The notes beneath the pieces were generated by a model that searched no databases, had not been told where the DNA came from, and was given only the letters and a program-made list of their open reading frames with translations. Of a stretch of DNA of 13,567 nucleotides, positions 6,781 to 13,541 are shown in pieces (within the stretch, counting starts at the first letter, position 1; every line of letters begins with the position of its first letter). A program made the position numbers and the translations under genes. This stretch comes from a bacterium (lineage in GTDB: Bacteria; Thermosulfidibacterota; Thermosulfidibacteria; Thermosulfidibacterales; Thermosulfidibacteraceae), in the NCBI GenBank assembly GCA_027022065.1, contig JALVZS010000032.1, forward strand, positions 1-13,567. The letters run 5' to 3'.

Positions 6781-7092
6781 ATGGAGTTGAACAGGTGGAT
6801 AGAGGAGATAAAGCAAAAGGGGAACATCCTCGTGGAGATGGGCAAGCTTAGGGTGAGGAAGGCCTCTCTGGAAAGGAGAATCTCAAAGTTTTACTGCAGG
6901 TTGGGTGAAAGGGTGGACTACCTTGACAAGATAGGAAAATCTCTGGATGGCGATGAGATACTCAAGGGTCTTATAGAGGAGATACGCGCTATTGAGAAAG
7001 AGATTGAGGAAATAGATAAGAAGCTTGCCGCTTTGGGTGAGCAGCAGATGGAGGAAGAAGGTGGGGATTTTGGAGATAAGGACGTTTCCTGA
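6781..7092 (+). CDS. Small coiled-coil protein of unknown function, coupled to def
   Basis: I do not recognise a named family. The product is 103 residues, very rich in Glu, Lys, Ile and Leu, with no signal peptide or membrane segment, so it is probably cytoplasmic. It reads as an antiparallel helical hairpin: one long amphipathic helix over about residues 3-50, a break near GKSLDGDE, a second helix over about 58-90 with heptad-like spacing, then an acidic and glycine-rich tail. The pattern [12 protein letters not shown] near the middle resembles a motif common in small bacterial coiled-coil proteins, but this similarity is by eye only. The ATG has a clear GGAGGG SD (6770-6775). The last 32 bases contain the start of def, and the def SD lies inside this gene, so the two are probably made together. 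The strong SD and tight coupling argue that it is real. Confidence 0.8.
7050..7054 (+). promoter_or_regulatory. Ribosome binding site of def
   Basis: GGAGG lies six bases before the GTG at 7061, inside the upstream coding sequence. It favours this GTG over an in-frame TTG at 7025, which has no SD and would add residues absent from the family. Confidence 0.7.
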
Positions 7093-9634: not shown

Positions 9635-9884
9635 AAGGGTGGCGGATGCTACAGGACTCACAAAGATCAAGGCGAAAGAGGTAGTTGAAGGAATAATAGA
9701 TGAGATTTTTTCCGCTTTAACTAGGGGCGAAAAGGTTTCCATAAGGAAGTTCGGCACCTTTGAGGTTGTGCGCTCCAACAGAACTAAAGGGAGAAACCTG
9801 CAGACCGGAGAGGAGATAGAGGTTGAGCCTAAGATGGTGGTGAAATTTCGCCCCAGCAAGCAGATAAAGTGGGTGGTTGAATAG
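9612..9884 (+). CDS. HU-type DNA-binding nucleoid protein
   Basis: This is a member of the HU/IHF family, small dimers that bind and bend DNA in the nucleoid. At 90 residues from the GTG it has exactly the HU length. It shows the N-terminal helices ([16 protein letters not shown]), the central RKFGTFEV strand region and the DNA-binding beta arm with [15 protein letters not shown] and FRPSKQIK. The anomaly is residue 63: HU and IHF proteins carry a proline here (RNPQTG) that inserts between base pairs to kink DNA, while this protein has Leu (codon CTG at 9798-9800). The start lies 23 bases inside the end of prfA with a good SD, and the stop overlaps the start of comEC by eight bases. HU is more likely than IHF from the sequence, but I cannot exclude an IHF-like or phage-like variant. 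Confidence 0.93.
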
Positions 9885-11628
9885 AGGGTTAGTAGTCCTT
9901 TTAGCCTTCTCTGTCTGCATCTCTGCCCTTTTCTGGAAGAAGAGGGTAGAGGATCTCAATCTTTTAAGGTCTCTTTATAAGGGGCCTGCCTCTGTAGAGG
10001 GAGAGGTTTTAAGCGATGCCTTTCCGTTTTCTAAATACGTTGATATGTCATTTGAGGGCTATAAAGTAAGGCTCTTTTTCAGAAGCACTGTCCCTCCTAT
10101 ATTTGCAGGGGATATACTGAGGGTTAGAGGAATTGCCTTTGTCCCGGTTGAGTATAAAAACCCTGGTGCTTTCTCCAGCAGAAACTTTCTAAATAGGAAA
10201 GGAATAGCCTTCTTTCTGAAGGTGAGGAGCTGGAAGCTGGTAACAAGGGGGAGGGGTTTTCTTTATGCTCTCCACAGGTTGAGAGTTAGGCTCATTTCTT
10301 TTTCTGGCAAATTGAATGAGCCTCTTAGGTACATTGTCCCTGCGCTTCTTTTTGGAGAGAAAGATAGTATCCCTAGGAAAGGTGTGTTTTATAGGCTGGG
10401 GCTTGGACACCTTCTTGCCGTAAGTGGGCTTCATGTAGCCATATTTGTAGGGACCTTGTACTTCATCTTCTTGTGGCTACTGAGACTTGTTAACCTGAAA
10501 TGGCAGCTTCCCTATATGCTACTTCCTAGAAGGAGTGCCCATCTTCTCTGTCTTGCATTTTCTCTTGCGCTTTTGGTCTTTGTGAACTGGCAGGTATCTG
10601 CTACTAGGGCGGTTTTTATGTATGCCTGCTATGTAGTTTTTGGGGTTTTTATGGAGAGGGATGTTTCCCTCTGGAGGAGTGCCCTTTTTGCCCTGTGTGT
10701 CTTTTTGCTATTGGTCCCCTGGCAGCTGTTTTCTCCAGGATTTCAGTATACCTTCCTGGCGGTTTTTGGCCTTTCAATTGTTCAGGAGCGTTTTGGAGAA
10801 AAGCCCAGATGGTTTTCGTTTTCTGTGGCTTCTTTCCTTCTTCCTCTGCTTCTCTTTCCCGTTTCTGCCTTCCACTTCCACAGGGTTTACCCTGCAGCTT
10901 TTGTCTTTAATCTTCTGCTTCTTCCTGTGTTCAGCCTCTTTTTGTCTGCGCTGTTTGTGCTTTTCCTTTTCTGCTGGATGACGGGTCTCATCTGGCCACT
11001 TTCCACCCTTAACGCTCTTTTTAAGCCGCTTTTCTCTTTTATGAAGACTGCCTCTTACGCTTCTTGGGTTGTGGAGACCAGCAAAGTGGATTGGGCGCTT
11101 TCTTTAGTAGTTGCGGCGTTTGCCCTTGTTATCGCTGGGGGAAGGCGCTTCTTTCCTTTGTTTGTTGTTGCGGCTTTTATCCTGACTCTTGTTGTTAGGG
11201 ATGCTGCAAGGGATAGGGTGGTGTTCTTTGACATGGGACCAAAGGGCGAGGCCGCTTTGGTGGTTTATGGAGGGAAGAAAGTGTTGGTTAATGCCAAAGG
11301 GGTGGGAAGGAATGCCGCAAGTGCTTTGTATCGATCGCTTATCTGGGAGGGGGCAAAGGCTATAGATGGCTTTGTCTGCCTAATAAACTCTTCCAGTCAG
11401 AAAAGGATTCTTAGCTTCTTAAAAAGAAGACTGAGCTTTACTCGCATAGAAAACTGCCCTCCTAAAGGTATCTGTCGCAGTTTCACTATTGCAGGAGTTC
11501 AATTTGTGTGTTTTAAACGGGATTGCCAAAGTGCTATATGTAAGGTCCTTGAAGGACCTGTTATCTACAGAAACAGAGAGATTTTAACTTGGAAAACAGG
11601 GGCTGTGAAAATACTCCTGGAGGAGTGA
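9877..11628 (+). CDS. comEC: ComEC/Rec2-type DNA-uptake channel with degenerate C-terminal domain
   Basis: ComEC forms the inner-membrane channel through which single-stranded DNA enters the cell in natural transformation. The 583-residue protein starts with a hydrophobic segment (about 4-20), then a DUF4131-like OB-fold region (about 35-120) ending in the family motif NPGAFSSRNFLNRKGI. The competence domain follows, with the hallmark LLAVSGLHV near 180-190 and many hydrophobic membrane segments to about residue 440. Family members such as B. subtilis ComEC continue with a metallo-beta-lactamase-like domain of some 250-300 residues. Here only about 135 residues remain from VVFFDMG (about 447), and the metal-binding HxHxDH is replaced by INSSSQKR near 501-508. 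The start is an unusual TTG within the end of the HU gene; an upstream in-frame stop at 9865 excludes longer versions and no other start codon occurs in the next ~50 codons. trpS follows after two bases. Confidence 0.9.
   Translation: MNRGLVVLLAFSVCISALFWKKRVEDLNLLRSLYKGPASVEGEVLSDAFPFSKYVDMSFEGYKVRLFFRSTVPPIFAGDILRVRGIAFVPVEYKNPGAFSSRNFLNRKGIAFFLKVRSWKLVTRGRGFLYALHRLRVRLISFSGKLNEPLRYIVPALLFGEKDSIPRKGVFYRLGLGHLLAVSGLHVAIFVGTLYFIFLWLLRLVNLKWQLPYMLLPRRSAHLLCLAFSLALLVFVNWQVSATRAVFMYACYVVFGVFMERDVSLWRSALFALCVFLLLVPWQLFSPGFQYTFLAVFGLSIVQERFGEKPRWFSFSVASFLLPLLLFPVSAFHFHRVYPAAFVFNLLLLPVFSLFLSALFVLFLFCWMTGLIWPLSTLNALFKPLFSFMKTASYASWVVETSKVDWALSLVVAAFALVIAGGRRFFPLFVVAAFILTLVVRDAARDRVVFFDMGPKGEAALVVYGGKKVLVNAKGVGRNAASALYRSLIWEGAKAIDGFVCLINSSSQKRILSFLKRRLSFTRIENCPPKGICRSFTIAGVQFVCFKRDCQSAICKVLEGPVIYRNREILTWKTGAVKILLEE
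11619..11625 (+). promoter_or_regulatory. Ribosome binding site of trpS
   Basis: GGAGGAG at the very end of comEC, five bases before the ATG at 11631, sets the start. An in-frame start at 11589 would add 14 residues before the conserved [11 protein letters not shown] and place the SD inside the gene. Confidence 0.85.
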
Positions 11629-11630
11629 AG

Positions 11631-12617
11631 ATGAAGAGGGTCCTAAGTGGTATGAGGCCAACAGGGAAACTCCACCTTGGAAACTACCTGGGGGCGCTCA
11701 AGAACTGGGTGGCTCTGCAGAATGAGTATCAGTGCTTTTACTTTGTGGCGGACTGGCACGCCCTCACCACCGAGTATGAGGATCCTAAGTCCATAAGAGA
11801 GAATTCCCTTGAGGTGGTTATAGACTGGCTTGCGGCAGGGTTAGATCCTGAAAAGAGCATACTTTTCGTTCAGTCATGGATAAAGGAGCATGCGGAGCTT
11901 CACCTATTATTTTCCATGTTCACCCCCCTTTCCTGGCTTGAGAGAAACCCCACCTACAAGGAGATGAAGCAGGAGCTTGGGGAGTATAAGGAACTCGCCA
12001 CATACGGTTTTCTGGGGTACCCGGTGCTTCAGGCGGCGGATATACTCATATACAAGGCCCACTATGTTCCTGTAGGCAAGGATCAGCTTCCCCACCTTGA
12101 GCTTACCAGGGAAATTGCAAGAAGATTTAATTATCTTTACGGGCGTTGTTTCCCAGAACCCCAGCCGAAGCTGACAGAGATTCCCAAGGTGCCAGGAACA
12201 GATGGAAGAAAAATGAGCAAAAGCTACAACAACGCTATATATCTTGCAGACACGCCCGAGGAGGTTTGGGAAAAGCTAAGGCCTATGGTAACCGACACTA
12301 GGAGAAAGAGGAAAACCGATCCAGGGGAGCCTCAGGACTGCCCCGTTTACTACCTGCATCTGGCCTTTACGCCTGAGGAGGAATTAAGGGTGGTGGAGGA
12401 TGGGTGCAGGAAGGCTGCCTTTGGCTGTATAGAGTGTAAAAAGCGCCTCTACAACCACATGATGGAACAGCTCGGCCCAGTGATGGAGAGGAGGAGACAG
12501 TGGGAGAAAAGAAAAGATGAGGTTATGGATATACTGAAAGAGGGTGCTAAAAAGGCCAGGGAGGTGGCACAGGCAACAATGGAAGAGGTTAGAAGGCTTA
12601 TGGCTTTTGCCCTATAA
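11631..12617 (+). CDS. trpS: Tryptophanyl-tRNA synthetase, likely [4Fe-4S] type
   Basis: TrpRS attaches tryptophan to tRNA(Trp) in the cytoplasm. The protein has 328 residues, normal for bacterial class Ic TrpRS. The ATP-binding signature appears as TGKLHLGNY (HIGH motif) near residue 10 and KMSKS in [11 protein letters not shown]. The tryptophan-pocket region is visible as [15 protein letters not shown] and [18 protein letters not shown]. In the C-terminal anticodon-binding domain, C237, C259, C266 and C269 form C-x21-C-x6-C-x2-C. This is almost the C-x22-C-x6-C-x2-C that binds a [4Fe-4S] cluster in Thermotoga maritima TrpRS, so this enzyme probably carries one too. The start is the ATG behind GGAGGAG, two bases after comEC, so coupling is likely. 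The 3' end overlaps the convergent thioredoxin gene by 20 bases. Confidence 0.97.
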
Positions 12618-13068
12618 CTTCTTTAAGCGGTATCTCTCCCACGAACTTCTTAACTATAAATCCCTTTTCATCTATGAGAAACGCAGTGGGCAGGAACCTT
12701 ACGCCTGGATAGTCCATCAGCATCTGTTGGGATGCCACAGCCACAGGGAATATGTTGAACCCGTGCTCCTTTGCCGTTCTTGCCACTGCATCTCTATCCC
12801 TGTCCATAGCTACAAGAAGTACATTGACATGGGCTCTTTTTAAGGTATCTGCCTCTTCTGAAAGCTTCTTCAGCTCCTTTTTGCATGTGGGACACCAGGT
12901 AGCCCAAAATACCAGAAGCAACCTTTTGCCCTTGTACATGTTTATGGTGTAGGTCTTGCCGTCTATGCCCTTAACCTCAAAGTAAGGTGCTTGTATGCTT
13001 GTGCTTTTCTTTGCGCATCCTGTAAAGAGTAAAAACAGGCACAAGGCTAAAAGAAGGAGCCTCTTCAT
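12598..13068 (-). CDS. TlpA/ResA-like thioredoxin lipoprotein
   Basis: This is a membrane-anchored extracytoplasmic thiol-disulfide oxidoreductase of the TlpA/ResA/peroxiredoxin-like group, 156 residues. A positively charged start and hydrophobic stretch lead to the lipobox LFTGC with lipidated C18; Ala at +2 would allow outer-membrane sorting if the cell has the Lol system. The thioredoxin fold follows, with active site WATWCPTC (C59, C62) and cis-proline P127 in FLPTAF. Relatives reduce cytochrome c haem-binding cysteines or assist oxidase assembly, but the substrate here is unknown and no cytochrome genes are adjacent. The ATG has a strong AAAGGAGGA SD (13074-13082). It follows dciA by 32 bases on the same strand and overlaps trpS tail to tail by 20 bases. 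Confidence 0.9.
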
Positions 13069-13100: not shown

Positions 13101-13541
13101 TTATCGGTTGAGGCGGGCTTCTTCAAGGGAGATCATGGCTTTTAGTATAATTCTTCTCAGTTCAGGATCCTTAACCTTTGAGACCATTTTTTCCATATTC
13201 TTTATCTTTTCATGTTCTAGTCTTTTTCTATTCTGAACTAGCATGCGTCTCTTTATCCTGCCCAATGTAAATTTCGGTCTGAGGTTTATTTGGAATTTCT
13301 CTTTTATCCTTTCCTTTATAAGCTCTTGCTGAAGGGCCATCTGCTGCATTATCAGGTTGTTGTCCACCTCTATTATGAGATCATCTCCCACTATCCTTAG
13401 AGGACTGCTATGCTGAGCCACAAACTCCCCTACAATTTCTTTCCACCTTTTCCTCATAAGGAGTACAAGGAGCCCTTTATTCCACTGATTGTCCTCAAAG
13501 CCGCTTACTAGGGCCTCAAATATGGAGAAAAAGTCCTTCAT
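13101..13541 (-). CDS. dciA: DciA-like (DUF721) putative replicative-helicase loader
   Basis: The N-terminal half fits the DUF721/DciA family: the [18 protein letters not shown] segment (W33), then the [16 protein letters not shown] strand-helix region and a helix ending in IKEKFQINL. DciA proteins help load the replicative helicase DnaB in bacteria lacking DnaC or DnaI, acting at the origin. The product has 146 residues, within the family range. The C-terminal half is strongly basic and probably helical ([18 protein letters not shown]), unlike the family core, and may bind DNA or be disordered. The ATG has no clear SD. The reading frame stays open to the window edge, but no start codon occurs in those 26 bases, so a longer N-terminus is possible only from outside. 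Family assignment rests on the pattern of the first half. Confidence 0.75.

Follow-up and report, generated by a model that had tools for sequence, protein, structure and literature searches.

A Thermotoga-type tryptophanyl-tRNA synthetase with a predicted [4Fe-4S] cluster and a ligand loop one residue shorter

Introduction

The structure of the tryptophanyl-tRNA synthetase (TrpRS) of Thermotoga maritima (TmTrpRS; PDB 2g36) was solved by Han et al. in 2010, and the iron of its [4Fe-4S] cluster was confirmed by X-ray fluorescence (PMC2954223). In that structure Arg224 contacts a cluster sulfur, and C266 was modelled as adjoining C34 of the anticodon; the authors proposed that the cluster serves stability and anticodon recognition, and they already gave the homologue motif, C-x(21-24)-C-x6-C-x2-C, mostly from thermophiles or other extremophiles (PMC2954223). 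A paper of 2017 listed TrpRS as cluster-binding in anaerobes, the homologue of aerobes being devoid of the pattern (PMC5279795), and another of the same year predicted a cluster in the TrpRS-A2 group of the rare archaeal/eukaryotic-clade TrpRS-A (PMC5370408). The four-cysteine TrpRS is thus a known and widespread type.

Here we describe the TrpRS encoded in a stretch of 13,567 nucleotides (the window). Since both the motif range and the Thermotoga cluster have been published, this protein adds a member to a published type.

Results

The window encodes a class I TrpRS with four aligned cysteines

The enzyme is encoded by the following gene:

11631..12617, + strand: trpS, tryptophanyl-tRNA synthetase, 328 aa, ATG start at 11631 (TIGR00233, PF00579)

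The translation matched PF00579 and scored 312.7 bits against TIGR00233 (curated cut-off, 176.75), which identifies it as a bacterial tryptophanyl-tRNA synthetase. It carries both class I signatures, a HIGH-like H15-L-G-N18 and the KMSKS K194-M-S-K-S198, and H15, G17 and the whole KMSKS are at least 90% conserved in an alignment of 81 homologues. A single TrpRS match was found in its own genome (1.57 Mb, 88% complete). Together with the predicted model, the sequence gives good support to placing the window protein among TmTrpRS-type class I enzymes with a housekeeping role.

Six cysteines occur in the protein, at residues 35, 173, 237, 259, 266 and 269. The last four are spaced as C-x21-C-x6-C-x2-C (12339-12437), as the sequence-only reading had described, and this holds in the 328-residue frame read from the ATG at 11631. 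The corresponding features, with residue counts from 150 aligned rows, are:

12192..12515, + strand: tRNA anticodon-binding domain, about residues 188-295, from the alignment to TmTrpRS 187-294
12303..12305, + strand: Arg225, equivalent to Tm Arg224, the residue in contact with a cluster sulfur in 2g36 (R in 124/150 rows, K in 25/150)
12339..12341, + strand: Cys237, predicted cluster ligand 1, equivalent to Tm C236 (Cys in 138/150 rows)
12405..12407, + strand: Cys259, predicted cluster ligand 2, equivalent to Tm C259 (Cys in 146/150 rows)
12426..12428, + strand: Cys266, predicted cluster ligand 3, equivalent to Tm C266 (Cys in 146/150 rows)
12435..12437, + strand: Cys269, predicted cluster ligand 4, equivalent to Tm C269 (Cys in 137/150 rows, Asp in 8/150)

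When phmmer aligned the protein with 2g36 (E 3e-122), each of these cysteines fell on a Thermotoga [4Fe-4S] ligand (C236, C259, C266 and C269), a coincidence for which six cysteines placed at random in 328 positions have a chance of about 3e-8. Conservation in each of the four columns is 90% or more among the 81 aligned homologues, and all four cysteines are kept in the complete relatives within the phylum of the window. The first spacing had been read as one residue shorter than in Thermotoga and the others as equal; indeed, the whole spacing difference comes from one alignment gap, which falls in the C237-C259 interval, in the loop that follows 'AFT/AFD', and x6 and x2 are shared.

CxxC pairs are frequent zinc binders, and the four cysteines could hold zinc, as in many tRNA synthetases, instead of an iron-sulfur cluster. 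We regard this as extremely unlikely, given that the closest solved homologue, which shares 59% identity, the same ligands and the arginine contact, holds a [4Fe-4S] cluster whose iron was detected by X-ray fluorescence.

The predicted fold superposes on the Thermotoga enzyme

An AlphaFold2 model built on the 81-sequence alignment had a mean pLDDT of 94.8 and a pTM of 0.91, with pLDDT values of about 93-98 around the ligands. In this model C237 lies just before helix 238-246, C259 ends helix 249-260, and C266 and C269 occupy the opening turns of helix 266-292. Among solved structures 2g36 matched best (Z 42.3, rmsd 1.1 A over 320 residues, TM 0.95), and the next structural matches trailed it by about 2 Z units. 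From this superposition and the alignment we infer that the four sulfurs converge, bearing in mind that AlphaFold may cluster cysteines since homologues carry them, irrespective of the metal bound. Sequence similarity, the modelled fold and the conserved ligands together give good support to an iron-sulfur-type TrpRS homologous to TmTrpRS.

The spacing between ligands 1 and 2 varies among homologues

We searched 386 genomes spread over the bacteria and took the better-scoring matches together with 16 named loci, which gave a survey set of 146 near-complete TrpRS picked for similarity to the window protein. Because this choice enriches for the motif, the safe figure is that at least 113 of the 386 phylogenetically spread genomes, counting best-scoring matches only, hold a TrpRS with all four cysteines. 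The statement that most bacterial TrpRS lack them is thus true only loosely. Across the 146 proteins the ligand patterns were CCCC in 128, SCCC in 8, CCCD in 8, CCCN in 1 and none in 1. Among the 128 complete motifs, the spacing between ligands 1 and 2 was x21 in 81, x20 in 37, x22 in 7, x19 in 2 and x18 in 1, and the same order was retained at 75% redundancy (x21 55, x20 32, x22 5, x19 2, x18 1). The Thermotoga x22 is a minority form among the homologues sampled.

The window spacings of x21, x6 and x2 satisfy the published C-x(21-24)-C-x6-C-x2-C. We rejected x21 as a novel spacing, which the earlier emphasis on the shorter distance had implied, because that published range already covers it (PMC2954223) and no other spacing is as frequent in the sample. 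The difference between x21 and x22 is an indel in a loop between two helices. On a TrpRS tree made by a quick method, the window protein grouped with two sequences of its own family (L018 and L002; SH-aLRT 95), and the other complete members of the phylum joined this group with weaker support. The length of the loop between ligands 1 and 2 required many changes on the tree, as expected of an indel-prone loop. Since this loop is so variable, a difference of one residue within it is functionally uninformative.

Ligand losses among relatives are non-random

Losses of a single ligand were confined to particular positions and residues, with Ser replacing ligand 1 and Asp or Asn replacing ligand 4; ligands 2 and 3 remained Cys in all 17 of these TrpRS. 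Ser at ligand 1 (window C237), with the other three cysteines kept, was found in L031, L036, L038, L056, L058, L074, L088 and L095, and this form required five changes on the tree, at least two of them forced by well-supported branches. Asp at ligand 4 (window C269), in the form GC-x-ED, was found in L053, L075, L076, L078, L081, L097, L103 and L139, and Asn at the same position in L148; the Asp/Asn form likewise required five changes, at least four of them forced by well-supported branches.

Two of the Ser forms, L088 and L095, carry a new Cys six residues upstream, with D-C-G for D-P-G, and from its position this residue might stand in for the lost ligand 1. Asp serves as a [4Fe-4S] ligand in Pyrococcus ferredoxin, and because of this precedent the ligand-variant TrpRS may be natural alternative-ligand or [3Fe-4S] enzymes.

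These relatives (SCCC 8, CCCD 8, CCCN 1; n=146) also bear on the idea that the window motif is vestigial, the cysteines being inherited by an organism whose enzyme holds no cluster. The window protein, however, keeps the four cysteines and the arginine, its complete phylum relatives keep the four cysteines, and a SUFBD_core gene (SUF cluster assembly) is present in its genome, so that we consider the chance of a vestigial motif to be next to negligible.

Genome partners and neighbours of trpS

The tRNA-Trp gene in the genome has the anticodon CCA, the discriminator G73, A1-U72 and A36-A37-A38, which looks like an ordinary bacterial identity set. A link to MiaB was uninformative, because the MiaB model gave five matches, none over its cut-off. 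The following genes lie in the window around trpS or farther upstream:

6781-7092, + strand: probably a coiled-coil protein, 103 aa, no Pfam or NCBIfam match
9877-11628, + strand: ComEC-like protein, upstream of trpS
12598-13068, - strand: TlpA/ResA-like thioredoxin lipoprotein (CPTC), convergent with trpS
13101-13541, - strand: DciA-family protein (PF05258), helicase loader, near trpS

A redox operon around trpS is ruled against by its neighbours, comEC upstream and the convergent TlpA/ResA-like gene downstream, which do not point to a redox regulon. Of seven loci checked in the phylum, six have comEC upstream of trpS; no TlpA-like gene was found there, within short downstream flanks.

Several further features were observed in the window. 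The trpS and TlpA/ResA-like genes share 20 bases at their 3' ends. The C-terminal part of the ComEC-like protein resembles a metallo-beta-lactamase domain devoid of the HxDxDH metal motif, as is also the case in L002, L019, L021 and L022. The 103-aa ORF begins inside the longest ORF of divergent purL, at the latter's 5' end.

The motif and oxygen lifestyle

No COX1-family gene was matched in seven genomes of the phylum, that of the window included. Over-cut-off matches to the COX1 (haem-copper oxidase) family (PF00115) were found in 19/44 four-cysteine genomes tested, in 5/9 genomes whose ligand 4 is Asp or Asn and in 5/8 whose ligand 1 is Ser; PF00115 also takes in NO reductases, which limits each of these figures as a test of lifestyle. 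Legionella adelaidensis, an aerobe, has a TrpRS with the x21 motif. The 19 matches together with this enzyme indicate that the motif, in our sample, is not confined to anaerobes.

These data bear on the suggestion, made from the sequence alone, that the cluster could be a redox sensor for tRNA-Trp charging. In the wider form considered here, a redox or iron sensor, loss or oxidation of the cluster would lower charging and thereby tie translation to oxygen or iron status. If true, a housekeeping synthetase would act in the redox control of translation. The position of the TmTrpRS cluster beside the anticodon site would suit such a sensor, the absence of COX1-family oxidase matches from the seven phylum genomes is consistent with anaerobes, and the 2017 survey recorded aerobes' homologue as free of the cluster pattern (PMC5279795). 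Against it, trpS is a single housekeeping copy with no cluster-free paralogue in its own genome (88% complete), and a sensor that halted charging would presumably halt growth; the four-cysteine form also occurs in the COX1-family-positive genomes and in L. adelaidensis. A redox response had neither published nor local support, the authors of 2010 having proposed stability and anticodon recognition. We therefore judge a sensor to be very unlikely.

Discussion

Taken together, the window TrpRS is very probably a housekeeping enzyme of the TmTrpRS type whose four cysteines bind one [4Fe-4S] cluster in a structural role; this rests on sequence, model and analogy. The binding of a cluster, its [4Fe-4S] nature, its structural role and any contribution to anticodon recognition are all read across from the Thermotoga structure.

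On this basis, the four cysteines of the helical anticodon-binding domain would bind a single [4Fe-4S] cluster, one helix being capped by C237 and the next ending with C259, while the early turns of a third supply C266 and C269. Because the ligands are spread over three helices, the cluster would hold these helices together, next to the face that contacts the tRNA-Trp(CCA) anticodon. The cluster would thereby stabilise the anticodon-binding domain and possibly aid anticodon recognition directly. The residue missing relative to Thermotoga would come out of the loop that joins the first and second helices, with no ligand shifted.

The window TrpRS illustrates the variable length of the loop between ligands 1 and 2, and it adds a small bacterial phylum, in which no COX1-family gene was found, to the known iron-sulfur TrpRS. 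Why a synthetase carries a cluster could be tested with the Asp and Ser ligand variants that occur naturally among relatives.

Among known systems, the closest is T. maritima TrpRS (TM0492, PDB 2g36), which like the window protein is a class I TrpRS with four aligned cysteine ligands and an arginine by the cluster, and which has the same fold (Z 42.3, 1.1 A, 320 residues) at 59% identity. The two differ in the loop (x22 in Thermotoga, x21 in the window) and in that the cluster is observed in Thermotoga and predicted in the window. Four-cysteine TrpRS also occur in Proteobacteria and other bacteria; for instance, the trpS on a plasmid record of L. adelaidensis (WP_058462359.1) encodes C-x21-C-x6-C-x2-C like the window and is 54% identical, but its product, at 403 aa, has an insertion between the catalytic core and KMSKS. 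Deinococcus radiodurans TrpRS II (PDB 1yi8 / 2a4m) has the fold of the window protein (Z 40.1, 44% identity), whereas it has N, Y, D and V at the cysteine positions and no cluster. Similarly, Thermus thermophilus TrpRS (PDB 2el7) shares the fold (Z 36.8, 48% identity in structural alignment) but has T, Y, T and V at these positions, and is thus the enzyme of a thermophile that does without the four cysteines.
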